This document shows, in pieces, positions 3,579-62,339 of a DNA stretch of 64,000 nucleotides. The translations under genes and the position numbers were made by a program. Positions within the stretch are counted from its first letter, which is position 1. Each line of letters begins with the position of its first letter. Where the stretch lies: IMG/VR virus record IMGVR_UViG_3300025039_000014, positions 1 to 64,000 of that record. One strand, given 5' to 3'. This DNA is from a virus. The notes under the pieces are model-generated. The model made no database searches and was not told the DNA's origin. It worked only from the letters and a program-made list of their open reading frames with translations.

Positions 3579-3629
3579 TTCGCACCCAGTGCGATTCGCT
3601 TATACTTTCATGAGTAAGTCATTACTTAC
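3579..3629 (+). promoter_or_regulatory. Promoter and operator for the CobS/DnaE operon
   Basis: TTCGCA (3579-3584), 16-bp spacer, TATACT (3601-3606), then GTAAGT-CATT-ACTTAC at 3614-3629. A small hairpin TCGCAC/GTGCGA (3580-3594) overlaps the -35 and may end the upstream transcript. Confidence 0.65.
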
Positions 3630-54077: not shown

Positions 54078-55676
54078 CTAGCCGGTTGTTATACCCATCG
54101 TCCCGAGATCGAAATCCCGAGGACCATAGACGATATTCTCGTTGAATCCCGGTGTGTTCTGGACGATCGCTAACCGCTCAAGCGAGTGTTGCCGCAAGTG
54201 GTTGTTCGACTGATCAATAAAGTCGATGATCAGCGCCACGTTGGCACCCTGCTTCTTCGCCCGCAGTCCGCGACCGATACGTTGTCTCAGTGCTACTTCT
54301 GCCTTCCCACCACCGGCCAGGATCACGCACCCTACCGCTGGCACGTCCACACCGACATCCATGATCGTCGAGCCAATCAGCACTTGGGTATTGCCGTCAC
54401 GGAGATCGTTGAGCGCATCTTGCCGAGTCTGCTTCGATGATTCGCCGAAGACGAAATTAACCCGAAGGCCGGCTTCGGACATACGTTTTTCGAGCAGTCG
54501 CCCGTGCGCCTTCTGGAGCACCAAGAGCATGACGGGTAAACCGAGCTCGGCAGCACGCAAAGCCTCCTTCACAATTAAGGCATTGCGCGTAGCGTTATAT
54601 ATGATGCCGAGCTTATACGCTCGCTGCCATCCGGTGCCATTCCCCAGCACCGTGCTTTTCACACCAGTCTCATTCATCTGTTTCAGGCCGAGCCTGTCGG
54701 GACTATAACCGACGGTGTGATATCGAAAATAGGGGCGCGCCAAAACACCGCGCTCGATGAGCTCTTTTTCGGTAACGCGAGCCATGACCGGACCCGTGCA
54801 AGCCAGCAGTCGCATGTTGGCTTCCTGGTCGTCCTTCATGAACGGTGTCGCTGTCAGCGCGAGTCTGAAATGCGCGTTGCGACAGGCATCCATGATGGCG
54901 TAATACGAGTTGCCCGAGACCTCGTGCGCTTCTTCCAAGATCACGAATTCGACCATCTCCAGATATTTGAGCGTTGCTGCTCTGACCTTCGCCTGGCGTT
55001 CCTGTTCCGCTTTCGGCTTCGAACGATCCGGCTCCTTGAGCCGCTGCACCAGCGTCTGAACCATTGCCACCGTGACGGCACGACGCGGCGCGAACTCGCC
55101 GTCTCCAATGACGCCGACCTGCTTGCCCTTGAAGAACGTATCGCCGTTGTCCAACTGGAACGTGAACGATTCTTCGAAGGCTCTCTGCATCTGATACATC
55201 AGCACAAATCGGGTGGTGATGAACAGCGTCGGCCGGCGAATCCTCGAGACCGCCATGTTGGCCACCCGACTCTTGCCGCCACCCGTCGCGATCTGCGCGA
55301 TCCCCGCCCCTTCCCGCACTAGCGTGCGCACGACCTTCGGCTGGTAGTCGTATTGAGCGGTGTAGCCGAAACCGTCGATTCGAGGCATGTCCGGGCCGAG
55401 TGCTTCCGGCAGAGGCTTCTGGATCACCTGGGGCACAAAACCGCGTTTCTTGAGCTCTGCGCACAGCGGCTTGGTGAATCCCGCCGGGAACGTCGCATTA
55501 CCCCATTCGAAAAACGTCGAGACGCCATCCCAGTCGTCGTTCCTGGCAGCGTATGAGTATTCCGATCCGGCTGACTTATACGAGGTCAAGGATTGGACAA
55601 TTTCTTTCACCTTGACGCTGTCGTCGACCAGCTTGGCGACCCTGGCATTACGGGCGATTCGAATGATCTGCCCCAT
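54078..55676 (-). CDS. UvsW-like SF2 helicase
   Basis: 532 residues. Motif I ATGGGKS, motif II ILEEAHEVS (DEAH-like with E for D), motif III LTATPF, and motif VI QRIGRGLRAKKQG. Similar layout to T4 UvsW, which unwinds branched DNA and R-loops and promotes recombination-dependent replication. Reads away from the operator at 55715. Confidence 0.88.
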   Translation of the reverse strand: MGQIIRIARNARVAKLVDDSVKVKEIVQSLTSYKSAGSEYSYAARNDDWDGVSTFFEWGNATFPAGFTKPLCAELKKRGFVPQVIQKPLPEALGPDMPRIDGFGYTAQYDYQPKVVRTLVREGAGIAQIATGGGKSRVANMAVSRIRRPTLFITTRFVLMYQMQRAFEESFTFQLDNGDTFFKGKQVGVIGDGEFAPRRAVTVAMVQTLVQRLKEPDRSKPKAEQERQAKVRAATLKYLEMVEFVILEEAHEVSGNSYYAIMDACRNAHFRLALTATPFMKDDQEANMRLLACTGPVMARVTEKELIERGVLARPYFRYHTVGYSPDRLGLKQMNETGVKSTVLGNGTGWQRAYKLGIIYNATRNALIVKEALRAAELGLPVMLLVLQKAHGRLLEKRMSEAGLRVNFVFGESSKQTRQDALNDLRDGNTQVLIGSTIMDVGVDVPAVGCVILAGGGKAEVALRQRIGRGLRAKKQGANVALIIDFIDQSNNHLRQHSLERLAIVQNTPGFNENIVYGPRDFDLGTMGITTG

Positions 55677-55714: not shown

Positions 55715-55734
55715 GTAAGTAAGTGCTTACTTAC
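55715..55734. promoter_or_regulatory. Operator shared by two divergent operons
   Basis: An almost perfect 20-bp palindrome that contains two overlapping registers of the core: GTAAGT-AAGT-GCTTAC (55715-55730) and GTAAGT-GCTT-ACTTAC (55719-55734). Lies 39 bp from the helicase start and 53 bp from the ParB-like gene. Confidence 0.85.
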
Positions 55735-55786: not shown

Positions 55787-56452
55787 ATGAGCGAAATCCA
55801 GAAAGTAGACCCTCGGGAACTCCGCAAAAATTCTTGGAATACCAACAAGATGACGGCGGAAAACGAGGAAAAGCTGAGAACCAGCGTCCGGCGCAATGGC
55901 TTGCTCGGCGTGGTGCTGGTTCGAGAGCTGAAAGACGGCTCTATGGAGATCGTCGGCGGCGAACACCGCGTCGATATCGCTATCGAGGACGGTCAGTCAA
56001 CGGTCAACGTCCAAAACCTGGGCAAGATCAGCGATGCTCGCGCCAAGGAAATGATGCTGCTGGACAACGGCCGCTACGGACAGGATGACCCATTCGAACT
56101 GGCCGGCATTCTGGACGAGCTCGCCGCCGGCGGCGACGTGGATCTCTCCACCTTCATGCCCTTCGCCAGCGAGGACATGGACAAGCTGCTAAGCACCACC
56201 GACATCGACCTCGACAGTCTCGATTACCTCGACGAGCCGGACTACACCGGCGTCGAAGTCACCACCGAGAAGCGTGAGTCGAAAGTCCAGTCGCATCAGG
56301 TGCTGCGCTTCAAGGTCACGATGGACGACGCCGCGGCCGTGAAGCGCGTGATCGACAAGATCATGGAGTCACGGGGCTTCACCGAAGAGGACTCGCTGAC
56401 CAACGCCGGTGATGCCCTGGTCTACCTGGCGGGGGAATACGCCAATGAGTAA
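55787..56452 (+). CDS. ParB/sulfiredoxin-fold protein 1
   Basis: 221 residues from the ATG at 55787; a GTG five codons earlier is possible. LRKNSWNTNKM, SVRRNGLLGVVLV and GGEHRVDIA match the ParB N-terminal (CTPase/Srx) fold. No ParB HTH or dimer domain. In phages such short ParB-like proteins occur beside packaging or DNA-modification genes. First gene of the 55.8-59.4 kb operon. Confidence 0.8.
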   Translation: MSEIQKVDPRELRKNSWNTNKMTAENEEKLRTSVRRNGLLGVVLVRELKDGSMEIVGGEHRVDIAIEDGQSTVNVQNLGKISDARAKEMMLLDNGRYGQDDPFELAGILDELAAGGDVDLSTFMPFASEDMDKLLSTTDIDLDSLDYLDEPDYTGVEVTTEKRESKVQSHQVLRFKVTMDDAAAVKRVIDKIMESRGFTEEDSLTNAGDALVYLAGEYANE

Positions 56453-57119
56453 CGACCGCGGCGGCCAGGAGATCGTCTACCTCGATCCCAAGACCCTTAT
56501 TCCCTACGAGAACAACGTCAAGCGCCACCCGCGCAAGCACATCGAGGCGCTGAAAGCTCTGATGCTGCGTCACGGCTTCTCGAAGGGAAACCCCATCCAG
56601 GTCGACCGCAACATGGTCATCATCGCTGGACACGGCCGCACGGAAGCCGCGTGCGAGCTTGAGATGCCGGTGGTGCCGGTTGTCATCCGTTCGGACCTGT
56701 CCGACGACGAGGTGAAGCGCTGGCGTCTGGAAGAGAACAAGTCGGTCTCCAACGACTACGACGTGGTCGGCATGAAGGCCGAGATTGCCGATCTACTGGA
56801 TCTCGATGGGCCGTTGGTCGGCTTCGACGAGAAAGAGTGGGCGGTGCTGACCGAAGACCTCACGGCTGACTTCGATGCCGACTCGATGATCGCCGATCTC
56901 GAGGCCGAGATGGAATCCGCCGCGAAGCATCACGACGAGACCACCGAGAAGGCTCGCACCGAACAGGTGGCGATCACCGATCTTCTGGGATTCCGGCATG
57001 TGCCGGCGGCGCAGCAGCGCAAGATCGTCAAGTTCGTGGCGCGCCTCGAAGCTGAAACCGGCAAGACCGGCGCTGATGCCTTCCTGGCTCACATCGATCA
57101 GAGCGAGGGCGCGGCATGA
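56445..57119 (+). CDS. ParB/sulfiredoxin-fold protein 2
   Basis: 224 residues, overlapping the first ParB-like gene. NVKRHPRKHIEAL, FSKGNPIQVD and IIAGHGRTEAA are the ParB signature, followed by an acidic helical tail. A paralogue or partner of the protein upstream. Confidence 0.85.
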   Translation: MSNDRGGQEIVYLDPKTLIPYENNVKRHPRKHIEALKALMLRHGFSKGNPIQVDRNMVIIAGHGRTEAACELEMPVVPVVIRSDLSDDEVKRWRLEENKSVSNDYDVVGMKAEIADLLDLDGPLVGFDEKEWAVLTEDLTADFDADSMIADLEAEMESAAKHHDETTEKARTEQVAITDLLGFRHVPAAQQRKIVKFVARLEAETGKTGADAFLAHIDQSEGAA

Positions 57120-57754
57120 GCGACATCGTCATCGACAAGCGATTCAGCTCCCGCGTGACGCGCACCGATCGTGTGCTCGAAGTGGCCGAAGCCTTCGGGC
57201 TGGGCCTTGAGGATCGCGAGTTCGTGATCTACGACCAGCTGTCCGTCCAGGTCGAGCGTGGTGATGTCGTCTACATCAACGGGCAGTCCGGTTCCGGCAA
57301 GTCGTTGGCGCTGCGCGAGATCGCTCGCCAGTTGGCCGACCAGGGCATGCGCGTCGCCAACATCGACGAGATCGCCCTGGAAGACGTCCCGTTGATCGAT
57401 CAGATCGGCACCGACACCAACGACGCGGTTCGCCTGCTGTCGCTGGCTGGGCTCAACGATGCCTATCTGCTGGTGCGATCCCCTGCCGAGCTTTCCGATG
57501 GTCAGAAATATCGCTTCCGGCTGGCCAAGGTCATCGAGTCCGGCGCCGACGTGTGGGTCGCCGACGAGTTCTGCGCGGTCTTGGATCGCGAAACCGCAAA
57601 GGTCGTCTCGTTCAACGTCCAGCGCACGGCACGCAAGGCTGGCGCCACGGTGATCGTGGCCACCACCCATACCGACTTGGTAGAAGACCTCAAGCCAAGT
57701 CTGGTGATCGAGAAGTATTACAAGGCCAAAGTCAGCATGGAGAGACCCGCATGA
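57116..57754 (+). CDS. Soluble ABC-type ATPase
   Basis: 212 residues. Walker A GQSGSGKS at about 56-63, signature LSDGQKYRFRLAK at about 125-137, and Walker B VWVADEFCAVLD. No membrane part, so not a transporter. Sits between ParB-like and GNAT-like genes with ATGA overlaps on both sides; probably a DNA-associated ATPase of the same system. Confidence 0.85.
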   Translation: MSDIVIDKRFSSRVTRTDRVLEVAEAFGLGLEDREFVIYDQLSVQVERGDVVYINGQSGSGKSLALREIARQLADQGMRVANIDEIALEDVPLIDQIGTDTNDAVRLLSLAGLNDAYLLVRSPAELSDGQKYRFRLAKVIESGADVWVADEFCAVLDRETAKVVSFNVQRTARKAGATVIVATTHTDLVEDLKPSLVIEKYYKAKVSMERPA

Positions 57755-58230
57755 GTGATGCTTCGACAACAGACGGACCCGCTACCGATACCTCTACGGT
57801 CGACCATGCGAAGACCATTCAGATCGTCGAGAAGCGCTGCAAGAAGCACGGTGTGGCGATCGTCACGATCCAGCCGTTCAGTGCGCGCCTGTTCGTGTTC
57901 AGAGGTCTCGATACCTACAGCGACAAGCTCAAGGCGATCTTCGGCGTCGAGACGCAGATGGGCTGCATCCTGCAAGACCTGAACGTCGGTGGTTTCTTCG
58001 GCTCCGAGTTGGACGTCAACGGCTGCCCGATTCTGGTGCTGGCGATCGATGGCACGACGAAATACCCGGAAGAAGCCATCTGGCACGAAGCGCTGCACGC
58101 GACCTTCGTCATCCTGGACCTCTACGGGGTCGAGTTCGACGTCGATAACCACGAAATCTACACCTACACCCAGGGCTACATCGTCAGTCAGATTCGCCAG
58201 CAACTCTACGGGCGAGAGTCGTTTCGATGA
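57751..58230 (+). CDS. HExxH metallopeptidase-like protein
   Basis: 159 residues. H112-E113-A-L-H116 within WHEALHATFVILDLYG, followed by NHEIYTYTQGYI, whose Glu could complete a zincin site. Small predicted zinc hydrolase; ATGA overlaps couple it to the ATPase and the GNAT-like gene. Confidence 0.7.
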   Translation: MSDASTTDGPATDTSTVDHAKTIQIVEKRCKKHGVAIVTIQPFSARLFVFRGLDTYSDKLKAIFGVETQMGCILQDLNVGGFFGSELDVNGCPILVLAIDGTTKYPEEAIWHEALHATFVILDLYGVEFDVDNHEIYTYTQGYIVSQIRQQLYGRESFR

Positions 58231-59132
58231 TCCCGAATGACGTCGCGATCCGCCGGCCGGCCGCCTCTGAGTGGTCGGAGGGCTTCTCGTTGCTGTCGCG
58301 AATGGTCCTCGAGCGCGGCACCCGCGAAGACTGGCTGGCGCTGCACGATCTTCACTACAAGACCGAGACTGACTCCTTCGGCCAGACCTACTACCGCTGC
58401 ACGCTCGACGGCACGCTGATCGGCGTGGTCGTCACGGCCTACCCGAAGCTGTTGCTGGAACCGCGTCATCGCATGTTCCCGAAGATCAAGCCGACCGGCG
58501 GCTCCAAGCTCACCAATACGGCGCGGGCGAAGTTCGTGAATGACCTGTTCGCGATCGTCAACCGCTCGGTCGTTGACACGCTCTACCGCGGTGTCGGCGT
58601 CTCCTATCGGATGCTCAACCTGGCCGCCCGGATGCATCCACGCCAGGTGGTGGAGATCCAATCGGCCATGTCGAAATTCTCGCCCTTCGCCATGAAGGCA
58701 GGGTTCCTCTTCGCCAAGCCGATCCCGAACAAGAACTACGCCAAAGGCGTAGCGATGGTCACTCGTTTCTTCGATAGCCATCCGATGGACACCGTCGGCC
58801 TGCTCGAAGAGATCGACGCCATGCCGGACTCGCTCAAGCTCAAGACCCTGCGTGAGCTCACGGCGTTCTATTACAAGTGCTCGGCGCTTGAGAAGACCGG
58901 TCGCAACCTGGGTCGCGGCCTGGCTGACCTGGATTACGAGCCTGCCGAGCTGATCGCCAAGATTCAGGGACTGATCTTCGCCTCCCCGCTCTATGGCGCC
59001 TATCGCAATCCTGACTTTGGCCGTGCGCTGCCCGACCGGCTACCGCTGGCCGCGTTCGATCTCCAAAGTCCCAACGAACCGCTGAACCTCGCTGCCCTGG
59101 AAACCCTGATTGGAAGCGTCCCCGATGAGTGA
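58227..59132 (+). CDS. GNAT-fold protein, possibly Mom-like DNA modifier
   Basis: 301 residues. N-terminal 180 residues fit a GNAT fold, with R121-G-V-G-V-S as the acyl-CoA pyrophosphate loop inside LYRGVGVSYRMLNLAAR, followed by MKAGFLFAKP. The C-terminal 120 residues are unknown. Phage Mu Mom, a GNAT relative that carbamoylmethylates adenine in DNA, is the nearest analogue I can name, and the ParB/ABC neighbours fit a DNA-targeted system. A protein acetyltransferase is the alternative. Confidence 0.6.
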   Translation: MIPNDVAIRRPAASEWSEGFSLLSRMVLERGTREDWLALHDLHYKTETDSFGQTYYRCTLDGTLIGVVVTAYPKLLLEPRHRMFPKIKPTGGSKLTNTARAKFVNDLFAIVNRSVVDTLYRGVGVSYRMLNLAARMHPRQVVEIQSAMSKFSPFAMKAGFLFAKPIPNKNYAKGVAMVTRFFDSHPMDTVGLLEEIDAMPDSLKLKTLRELTAFYYKCSALEKTGRNLGRGLADLDYEPAELIAKIQGLIFASPLYGAYRNPDFGRALPDRLPLAAFDLQSPNEPLNLAALETLIGSVPDE

Positions 59133-59418
59133 ATACCGCATGACCCAGAAGCAGCTCCAGATCATCACCGCGATCCACGAGCACCAGAAGAACCACAAGC
59201 AGGACATCGACCTGGATCAGCTGCTGGGCTCTCTGCCCTACGAGACGACCAAGGAATCGATGCAGTTCAGCCTGCGAGCCCTGATCAAGAAGGGTCTGCT
59301 GGCGAAGGTAGGCGACGCCGTGATTCGTCGTGGACGGGCTCGTCGGACCTATCGGCTGACGCTGATGGCCAAGGAAATGTTCCGGCTGGGGTCAGAAAAA
59401 TCACACACACCAGCTTAA
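59125..59418 (+). CDS. Small winged-helix protein
   Basis: 97 residues overlapping the GNAT-like gene by 8 bp. Helices with MQFSLRALIKKGLLAKV and a basic wing RRGRARRTYRL fit a winged-helix DNA-binding domain. Last gene of the operon. Confidence 0.65.
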   Translation: MSEYRMTQKQLQIITAIHEHQKNHKQDIDLDQLLGSLPYETTKESMQFSLRALIKKGLLAKVGDAVIRRGRARRTYRLTLMAKEMFRLGSEKSHTPA

Positions 59419-60459
59419 AGTATTGATACAATCGGCAGAAGCTGTGCCAAGCAAATATCACTGATACCACCGATAAAACTCATACCACCGAACGCCCACT
59501 CGACACCGATATCACCGACTCCCCGCGACTCACACCTGCCGACATGACCGCTATCACCTGGCTTCACCTCCGCTAAGACCGACTGCACGCGATACCCAGG
59601 TTCAAGACCGAGACCACCGAGACAACCGATCGCTGACAGACCGCGCTGAAAGCGCAACGACGACGCACTGAACGAACCGACAGTCACCCGGCGCCACGAT
59701 CACCGATATCACCGCCCTATTCCGACGGCCAAGAGATCCGACCATCCCCAGAATGGTCCCAGGTGGGAAGCGAGTCCGGTATGTGTCCGCATCATGTTCT
59801 GGAAATTCAGGTCGGTCCCGTCCGACAAGGTCAATATCTATCGGCCTCATTGGCACAAACTCTCCAGACATAGAGCGCAGTTGGCGCGAAAAATCGTCGT
59901 CTGGGAGACGGGGAAGTTGCGCCTTCTCCCTTTGTGCGTTTCTGGCGAAAAATTCTGAGAGCACAGGATAACGCGAAATAATGCTTTCTAATCAATGCTT
60001 TACAGAGAAAACGCAACCCCGCTCATCCGAGGATATTGGGATCAAAAACACCCCTTCATCCGAGGCATCCAAATTCTCTCTAAAGTATTGTTTTGAAACG
60101 AGAAAAGAGTTTTTAGCTCCGATGCCTCAGTCCCTCTATAAATACACTCTCAAAACAAGAACCCCTAAAAACAGAATATTCAGTTTACGCAAAGTTAACG
60201 CGTAAACGTAAACGAAAAACCATCTGATATACGCGTAAAAATTCGGCCAGCGCGGGCCGCCGACCCTGACGACGGGAAACCTCGGAACGGATCGGAACCT
60301 GGCGGCGACCACCCGCCCAATGACTCTCTGAAAATCTGATCTTCGTGCCCCTGCTCAAATTTGCGTTCTAAGCGACGATATCGCTCCGATCCACCCCGAC
60401 ATACAGGGTAGCTTCGGAAAATCGCTGAGAACGCATCCCTGATCGATTGGGAGCGATTT
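59419..60459. other. 1.0-kb gene-free region upstream of the terminase genes
   Basis: No convincing gene. Contains degenerate (AT)ACCACCGA/ATCACCGA words, a 14-bp CACCGATATCACCG at 59504-59517 and 59701-59714, a 10-bp TCATCCGAGG at 60023 and 60056, an inverted repeat GAGGCATC/GATGCCTC (60062 and 60121), and AT-rich DNA with TTTACGCGT-type words (60184-60235). Its position before terS makes it a candidate packaging (pac/cos) or origin region. Confidence 0.6.
60194..60207. repeat. GTTAACGCGTAAAC, shared with 49.5 kb
   Basis: Exact reverse complement of 49516-49529. Related words ACGCGTAAA at about 60229 and GTTTACGCA at 60183 lie nearby. Confidence 0.6.
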
Positions 60460-61104
60460 ATGAGCGACACGAAGACTGCACGAAAGCGAATGTCTCCGAG
60501 CCAGTGGGCAGAAGCGCGTGCGATGTGGGCGTCGGGCGAGTTCACGCTGGAACAGATCGCCGAGAAATACGGCGTCGCCCGCGAAACCCTGTCGCGCCGG
60601 TTCGCCAAGGACGGGGTCAAGAAGGGTCAGAGCCAGATCGATCGCAAGGTCGAGCAGGAGCTGATCGAGAAAGCCGTCCAGGCTGCCGACAAGTGGGCGG
60701 AGCGCGGCGAACAAGCCCGCGAATCGTTCTTCAAGATGAACAAGATGGTCGTCGCGCTGACCGGCAAGGTCTTGCAAGACGCGATCGCCGGGGGCAAGGG
60801 GCTCTACACCGCCCAGGCCGACCTCAAGGCACTCCAGATGACATCGATCATTCTGGAGAAGACTCGGGCGAATCAGTGGGCCGTCGTGGGTCTCGACAAG
60901 GAAACCGACAACGACGACGAAATCCCCCAGCTGCTGGTGCGCACGCTGACCCCGGATCAGGTCGTCGAACTCCAGCGCATGCAGCATCAGGTAACGCCGG
61001 AAGACGAGATCGAGGTCGGCGACGCCGAACCCTACCTCGAAGACATCGATGTTCTCGATGACGAAGACGACGATGCGGTTATCGTCGAAGAGGCCGACGA
61101 CTAA
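60460..61104 (+). CDS. Terminase small subunit
   Basis: 214 residues. N-terminal HTH: FTLEQIAEKYGVARETLSRRFAK at about 28-50. Helical middle for oligomerisation, very acidic C-terminus. GGGAGCG ribosome site; stop and next start share TAATG. Recognises the packaging site. Confidence 0.85.
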   Translation: MSDTKTARKRMSPSQWAEARAMWASGEFTLEQIAEKYGVARETLSRRFAKDGVKKGQSQIDRKVEQELIEKAVQAADKWAERGEQARESFFKMNKMVVALTGKVLQDAIAGGKGLYTAQADLKALQMTSIILEKTRANQWAVVGLDKETDNDDEIPQLLVRTLTPDQVVELQRMQHQVTPEDEIEVGDAEPYLEDIDVLDDEDDDAVIVEEADD

Positions 61105-62339
61105 TGGCCGCCGTCATCGATCTCAGCCTTCACGACAAGCAGATGGAAGTCTTCTCCGACCCGGCGCGATTCAAGGTCGTCGTGGCCGGCCGGCGCTGGG
61201 GCAAGTCTCGTCTGTCGCTGACCTCGATGCTGCGCGCCGCCCGGATGCCCCGCTCTCGGGTCTGGTATATCGCGCCGACCTTCCGCATGGCCAAGCAGAT
61301 CATGTGGGACGAGCTGCTGGAGATGATCCCCAAGCAGTGGGTCAGGAAGACCAACCACTCGACCCTTACGGTGGTGCTCAAGAACAAGACCGAAATCTCG
61401 CTCAAGGGTGCCGACCGCCCCGATACCCTGCGCGGTGTCGCGCTGAACTACGTGGTCCTCGACGAATTTCAGGACATGAAGGCCGACGTCTGGGTCAAGG
61501 TGCTTCGCCCGACGCTGTCGTCAACCGGCGGACACGCACTGATCATCGGCACCCCGAAGGCGTTCAACTACCTCTACGAGCTGTGGAAGCTCGGTCAGGA
61601 TGGCCGCTCGAAGCAGTGGAAGTCCTGGCAGTTCGAAACCGCCTCATCGCCCTTCATCCCGGCATCCGAAATCGAAGCAGCCCGCGAGGACATGGACCCC
61701 AAGTCGTTCGCACAGGAATACCTGGCGAGCTTCGCCACCATGTCGGGCCGAGTCTACTACCCGTTCGATCGCATGGAGCATGTCGGCACCTATGCGTTCA
61801 ACCCCGCCCTGCCGATCTGGGTGGGCCAGGATTTCAACATCGACCCGATGTCCTCGGTGGTCATGCAGCCGCAGAGCAACGGCGATATCTGGATCGTCGA
61901 CGAGATGATTTTGCCATCCTCGAATACGGCCGAAGTGTGTGACGAGCTGGAGCGCAAGTTCTGGCGCTGGCAGTCCAATTTGACGGTTTACCCCGATCCA
62001 GCCGGAGGCCAGCGCCAACACGCCCGCGGCGAAACCGATATGGACATCTTTCGGGAACGCGGCTTCAAGCGGCTCAAATACAAGCGCCGGCACCCGGCGA
62101 TCGCCGACCGCGTCAACGCGGTCAACTCGATGCTGATGAGTGCATCCGGCCAGGTTCGCCTGCGCGTGGACGCGAGCTGCCGTCAAACGATCTCGGCCTT
62201 CGAACAGACGCTTTACAAGCCAGGCAGTCGGGACATCGACAAGGCCGCCGGTGTGGAGCACCCGGCCGATGCGCTGGGCTACTGCATCGACCTCGAACGT
62301 CCGGTGCGGAAATTCAAGCCGATGGGCGCTTCTTTCTGA
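61104..62339 (+). CDS. terL: Terminase large subunit
   Basis: 411 residues. Walker A AGRRWGKSR, Walker B YVVLDEFQDM, then the RNase H-fold nuclease region with QDFNIDP, YPDPAGGQ and EHPADALGY. Motor of DNA packaging; acts with the small subunit and the portal. Confidence 0.95.
   Translation: MAAVIDLSLHDKQMEVFSDPARFKVVVAGRRWGKSRLSLTSMLRAARMPRSRVWYIAPTFRMAKQIMWDELLEMIPKQWVRKTNHSTLTVVLKNKTEISLKGADRPDTLRGVALNYVVLDEFQDMKADVWVKVLRPTLSSTGGHALIIGTPKAFNYLYELWKLGQDGRSKQWKSWQFETASSPFIPASEIEAAREDMDPKSFAQEYLASFATMSGRVYYPFDRMEHVGTYAFNPALPIWVGQDFNIDPMSSVVMQPQSNGDIWIVDEMILPSSNTAEVCDELERKFWRWQSNLTVYPDPAGGQRQHARGETDMDIFRERGFKRLKYKRRHPAIADRVNAVNSMLMSASGQVRLRVDASCRQTISAFEQTLYKPGSRDIDKAAGVEHPADALGYCIDLERPVRKFKPMGASF

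Follow-up and report, generated by a model that had tools for sequence, protein, structure and literature searches.

The window analysed here, a stretch of 64,000 nucleotides, comprises bases 1–64000 of a 104,759-bp viral contig (IMG/VR record IMGVR_UViG_3300025039_000014), and at positions 55787–59418 it carries six plus-strand open reading frames (ORFs) that encode two ParB-like proteins, a soluble ABC ATPase, a putative zincin, a 301-aa protein of GNAT fold and a winged-helix-like (wHTH) protein. This operon is probably a split, two-ParB version of the predicted GNAT–ABC DNA-acylation system. The reading is favoured by the GNAT fold itself, by homology to phage ABC–GNAT fusion proteins, by the exchange of such fusions with Mom in a single genomic slot of other phages, by the association with ParB proteins and by a shared His-Tyr signature, and also because the GNAT–ABC prediction has already been published and a partition role is argued against. 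The initial annotation had seen in these genes a candidate, possibly undescribed, DNA-modification system; a likely role in DNA modification is supported, but the novelty, the zincin as a core part and the membership of the GNAT protein in the Mom family are not.

A GNAT coupled to an ABC ATPase was predicted to be a DNA-base acylation system by Iyer et al. in 2013 (doi 10.1093/nar/gkt573), and PMC7824862 restates this prediction, with phage pT24 as an example. Since the ABC protein of the window matches Tenacibaculum phage pT24 (tblastn E 1e-13), and since GenBank notes such as 'ABC-type ATPase fused to a predicted acyltransferase domain' are already attached to this GNAT family, the system cannot be called undescribed. 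No experimental report of DNA modification by a GNAT–ABC system was found in the open-access literature searched, which is not proof of absence. What is added here to the 2013 prediction is the split architecture with two ParB proteins, the fixed core status of the genes in the SSU5 group of phages and the slot swap with Mom.

The ABC ATPase (212 aa, 57116–57754) is a stand-alone protein with intact nucleotide-binding motifs (Walker A GQSGSGKS, signature LSDGQ, Walker B/H-loop residues), and it aligns to the N-terminal ABC half of the phage ABC–GNAT fusions with an hhalign probability of 99.7 (E 4e-26). The GNAT protein (58227–59132), a member of phrog_886 (385 bits), aligns to their C-terminal GNAT domain (phrog_11143; probability 96, E 3e-9), so that its closest relatives are the GNAT halves of these fusions and not protein acetyltransferases. 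Because the two proteins align to the two halves, the operon is, on this homology, the split form of a system found elsewhere as one polypeptide. The fusions (PHROG 11143; pT24, Leptospira phages LE3 and LE4) share with the operon homologous ABC and GNAT parts, a ParB neighbour, the phage setting and the predicted function in DNA base acylation, and they lie beside ParB and near the terminase in Leptospira LE3 and in Gordonia Jace and AnClar, with Streptococcus Javan420 as a partial case. The operon differs from them in that GNAT and ABC are separate, adjacent proteins accompanied by two ParB paralogues, in the long extra C-terminal part of its GNAT, and in its place beside the terminase as a constant core component of a single phage group. 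The label of ABC transporter that PHROG gives to the ATPase was rejected, as no permease family was matched by any of the six operon proteins in Pfam, PHROG or NCBIfam and the type of ABC domain is that of the ABC–GNAT fusions. A survey of cellular ABC–GNAT proteins with phrog_11143 was dropped, since the profile matches ABC ATPases in general (14/14 controls).

Several observations concern the relatives of these two proteins. In pT24 the GNAT–ABC example consists of two adjacent ORFs (L014:3842-5014), both of which match the ABC–GNAT profile and bear the annotation of an ABC ATP-binding protein; a frameshift or a split gene may account for this. Genes for small-molecule enzymes lie next to ABC–GNAT fusions (L020:4981-5454, L017:2312-2962 and L016:5113-5538), among them formyltransferase-like genes, all of PHROG 9240, in phages of Porphyromonas and Gordonia, as well as an aspartate decarboxylase, which makes beta-alanine, in Gordonia phage Jace; these enzymes may shape or supply the transferred group. 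Aeromonas phage PX29 (L123, H83) has a Mom-like gene and, in addition, one that matches the ABC ATPase of the operon.

The GNAT protein with its acyl-CoA loop was correctly recognised by the initial annotation. An AlphaFold2 model built with 43 diverse homologues has a GNAT fold with a mean predicted local distance difference test score (pLDDT) of 90.4, and in the R-G-x-G loop (residues 121–124) R121 is present in 43/43 homologues, G122 in 42/43 and G124 in 43/43. That the fold might clearly belong to a protein acetyltransferase family had been named as a refuting outcome; the protein has no Pfam or NCBIfam match, and hence none to a curated family of the RimI/Rac type. A sequence search of solved structures with the protein and with its profile gave no match either. 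Among viral models, Foldseek retrieves the ABC–GNAT protein of Leptospira phage LE4 and a Mom of a Salmonella phage. After the first helix, the protein carries an HYK motif (residues 43–45) in 41/41 gap-free homologues, at a position occupied by [HY]YL in 5/5 ABC–GNAT fusions and by HYS in 6/6 Mom proteins, although the register between this GNAT and Mom rests on a weak profile alignment.

Mu Mom (PF25680; PDB 8bv8, titled methylcarbamoylase) resembles the GNAT protein in its fold, in the His-Tyr after helix 1 and in its phage setting, and differs in that the GNAT of the window is always accompanied by an ABC ATPase and ParB proteins. Direct homology to Mom, for which a profile comparison had been suggested as a check, did not emerge: hhalign against six Moms gave a probability of 1.5 (P 0.034, not significant), single-sequence comparisons were not significant, no Pfam match to PF25680 was obtained, and the alignment serves solely to give the HY motif a weak register. 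A connection of another kind is provided by the transposable phages of Porphyromonas gingivalis (PMC10367356; a term search of its text found no mention of Mom or acetyltransferase). In ten of these phages, whose right-end loci include L020, L125, L126, L127 and L128, the gene after the last tail gene occupies a shared slot with homologous flanks. The slot holds Mom in four (012a–015a) and an ABC–GNAT fusion in five (006a, 007a, 008a, 009a and 011a), and it is empty in 010a; a formyltransferase-like gene follows the fusion in 007a, 008a and 011a, the three for which the annotation was read. Mom and ABC–GNAT thus share one slot in P. gingivalis phages, as observed in this analysis, and in Mu, mom is likewise the last gene. 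Avoidance of restriction sites was also considered as evidence of modification, and little avoidance of 4-mers is seen in the window; the measure has no discriminating power, because Mu, a Mom maker, avoids palindromes about as strongly as T7.

The two ParB proteins also point to DNA. ParB1 (221 aa, 55787–56452) scores 31.2 bits against Pfam ParB_N, above the cut-off, belongs to phrog_723 (E 5.5e-53) and weakly matches the CTP-binding domain of Spo0J (6sdk). ParB2 (224 aa, 56445–57119), whose ORF overlaps that of ParB1 by 8 nt, is its ParB/Srx-like paralogue (E 6e-5); it stays under the ParB_N cut-off (15.4 bits) and is recognised by PHROG only, as a member of ParB family 930 (192 bits, E 1.8e-56). 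ParB2 also matches phrog_498, labelled 'DNA methyltransferase' (E 4e-27), and PADLOC MTase_II (E 3e-12), and its domain resembles the ParB domains of ParB–methyltransferase fusions. Other ParB proteins of PHROG 723 are direct neighbours of Mom, in Microbacterium phage Bush, and of an ABC–GNAT fusion, in Gordonia phage Jace; ParB genes were described in 2025 near the CmoX DNA-hypermodification enzymes (PMC12783734). ParB–methyltransferase fusions, DndB, DpdB and the ParBc proteins near CmoX are alike in placing a ParB/Srx protein beside, or fused to, a DNA-modifying enzyme, and they differ from this operon in the enzyme itself: the record of the window yielded no N6/N4 methyltransferase, and the operon contains neither a TGT nor a Dnd gene. 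A formyltransferase was likewise not found in the record.

Some points weigh against DNA acylation. The top Foldseek matches of the GNAT model in the PDB are agmatine/polyamine and N-terminal acetyltransferases and TmcA/NAT10; at E about 1e-4 these general matches are weak and single out no substrate, and the fold is generic, common to all the rival readings. Enzymes of GNAT fold fit many amine acceptors, and proteins and small molecules, too, are among their substrates. Besides the lack of a significant match to the Mom family, the conserved Asp of Mom (D149, SFAD strand, 6/6 Moms) is replaced by Ser149 in 42/43 sequences of the GNAT family of the window. The right end of transposable phages is a moron site, so that the swap demonstrates a shared slot and not a proven shared function, and the GNAT of the window is tied to the slot-swapping GNATs by homology only. 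Finally, the module is kept in all 30 records of its terminase clade, and such total conservation is unusual for an anti-restriction gene and fits a core function in packaging or replication.

This conservation was established by running per-gene hidden Markov models (HMMs) over all fetched loci, which included the best 80 of 273 IMG/VR loci and 19 bacterial contigs, mostly elements of about 90–150 kb; 95 loci span the complete region. The order helicase (minus strand), ParB1, ParB2, ABC, a variable slot, GNAT, wHTH, TerS-like and TerL is found in 95/95 (94 by script, L117 deviating only by an open frame that begins upstream); phages of Stenotrophomonas, Pseudomonas and Rhizobium show it, as do SSU5-type phage-plasmids. 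Within the phage collection, GNAT and ParB1 are carried by 30 records, and precisely these have the closest terminases (identity of 52% or more); the record with the next terminase, at 42% identity, is not among the GNAT or ParB1 matches. The six genes had been regarded as one unit beside the terminase, and for the core order this holds throughout. The block is therefore a core part of this phage group, whereas the zincin, whose HExxH gene occurs in 19/95 complete loci, is not. Members of the SSU5 group (Salmonella SSU5, Escherichia Cyrano, Klebsiella phages and Pseudomonas/Rhizobium relatives) share the gene order around the operon, with 42–52% identity in the GNAT; SSU5 itself lacks the HExxH gene that the phage of the window has, and its gap before TerS is shorter. 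Another relative (L039), in which a GNAT segment is 90% identical, is located in the 4.2-Mb chromosome of Halomonas sulfidaeris, where the helicase, GNAT and terminase genes are broken into several ORFs, as in a decayed or frameshifted prophage; it suggests a Halomonas-like host for the phage of the window.

Because the block is never lost in the terminase clade, the principal rival is an acetylation of proteins coupled to packaging, in which ParB1, ParB2 and the ABC ATPase would load DNA near the packaging site and the GNAT would acetylate the terminase, the portal or a host factor. The constant position beside TerS and TerL (95/95) is what this explanation would predict, ParB–ABC genes also lie near the terminase in unrelated Leptospira, Gordonia and Streptococcus phages, and protein acetylation is common among GNATs. 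It is nonetheless considered unlikely, as the GNAT matches no protein acetyltransferase family and its closest homologues are ABC–GNATs that replace Mom at a genome end of transposable phages and not near the terminase, while the relatives in pT24 and vB_VmeM-32 have no annotated terminase within about 4 kb. Somewhat less probable is a combination of both ideas, according to which the core block would acylate DNA and the neighbouring terminase would recognise the mark, or the marking complex, and package modified DNA only. If true, the core system, possibly an essential one, would give the group a DNA-acyl packaging license and not just a coat against restriction.

It could also be argued, with rather low probability, that the ParB and ABC proteins form a module for DNA transactions (phage-plasmid partition, condensation or recombination) with the GNAT as a passenger or a regulator. 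In its favour, the structure of DNA is acted on by ParB/Srx domains and by soluble ABC ATPases of the SMC-like type, many carriers are contigs of phage-plasmid size, and a conserved helicase lies next door. A ParABS partition role was rejected in spite of the ParB N-terminal domain, because no ParA is found in the record (zero AAA_31 matches in the whole record, which may be incomplete) and SSU5 carries a separate ParA elsewhere. Conservation of the GNAT equals that of the ABC ATPase (95/95), and elsewhere the two are fused, which does not fit a passenger. The operon also has a copy of the phage-wide operator, whereas a gene for maintenance would be expected to stay active in the plasmid state. 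Least probable of all, and improbable in itself, is that the GNAT modifies a small molecule, a nucleotide or tRNA (for example, the nucleotide pool for replication) instead of DNA, as the structural matches to agmatine/polyamine acetyltransferases and to the tRNA cytidine acetyltransferase TmcA would allow, since these matches are weak and DNA is indicated by the two ParB partners, by the ABC ATPase and by the slot swap with Mom.

The regulation of the operon is suggested by a perfect palindrome with 9-bp arms, GTAAGTAAG-TG-CTTACTTAC (55715–55734), between the divergent helicase and ParB1 genes. A shared divergent operator had been assigned to the operon; the palindrome is present, but it is not private, being one of 17 dispersed copies of GTAAGT-N8-ACTTAC in the window (509–62367, against 0.04 expected by chance), so that the operator is phage-wide. 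Most copies, such as those at 3614, 12210, 17003, 42134, 53000, 55715 and 62348, precede an assigned gene start by no more than about 130 bp, all over the window, and the genes downstream include some of DNA metabolism and the ORF that follows TerL. In the related locus L003, whose GNAT is 79% identical, eight operator-like copies with up to two mismatches are found. The dispersed sites look like a genome-wide repressor regulon, and because they lie upstream of genes and are repeated in L003, the operon is probably under the global repressor of the phage.

The current model of DNA acylation by the operon proposes that, during the lytic cycle and after release from the phage-wide repressor, ParB1 and ParB2 would load on phage DNA in a nucleotide-dependent manner. 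A dimer of the soluble ABC ATPase would then engage the DNA, ATP hydrolysis being coupled to scanning or to base exposure, and the GNAT would move an acyl group from acyl-CoA to the exocyclic amine of a DNA base. The P-loop of the GNAT is predicted to bind CoA, judging from its motif and modelled fold, and the conserved His-Tyr pair would act in the active site. The resulting acyl mark would shield DNA that is soon to be packaged against restriction by the host.

The remaining features complete the layout. The ORFs of the operon, which abut or share 4–8 nt with their neighbours, are as tightly packed, and its parts as listed, as the initial annotation had described. The putative zincin (159 aa, 57751–58230), which had been given a possible part in the mechanism, is accessory; its HEALH motif is invariant among homologues, its predicted fold finds no match at E < 0.001, and the protein was discarded as a core component and is regarded as optional cargo in some lineages. 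The wHTH protein (97 aa, 59125–59418; phrog_900, E 7e-21) is encoded in all of the 95 complete loci and probably acts as a local regulator. Upstream, the UvsW/DEAD-like helicase, a conserved neighbour identified by homologue annotation and HMM search, is encoded on the minus strand (54078–55676). The packaging module does follow directly, with the plus-strand genes of a TerS-like DNA-binding protein (60460–61104; phrog_867, E 4e-44, with weaker terminase-small-subunit matches) and of the terminase large subunit TerL (61104–62339; Pfam Terminase_6N and 6C), past a stretch of 1.04 kb (59419–60459) that has no assigned gene and contains short ACCGATATCACCG-like repeats. The SSU5 and Cyrano records begin and finish within this wHTH–TerS interval, which may point to a packaging site or reflect a numbering convention only.

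SSU5-type phage-plasmids occur in Escherichia, Klebsiella and Salmonella, and the listed host of one of the phages, PhiR41_1, is the laboratory strain E. coli K-12; the fixed core status of the block in them makes the 2013 prediction directly testable. The exchange of Mom and ABC–GNAT in one slot gives comparative support to the idea that both enzyme types do the same job. If DNA acylation by this operon is true, an ATP-driven, ParB-assisted acylation of DNA would join the known base modifications of phages, and a function would be provided for two recurrent phage ParB families that are now labelled 'partition protein'.

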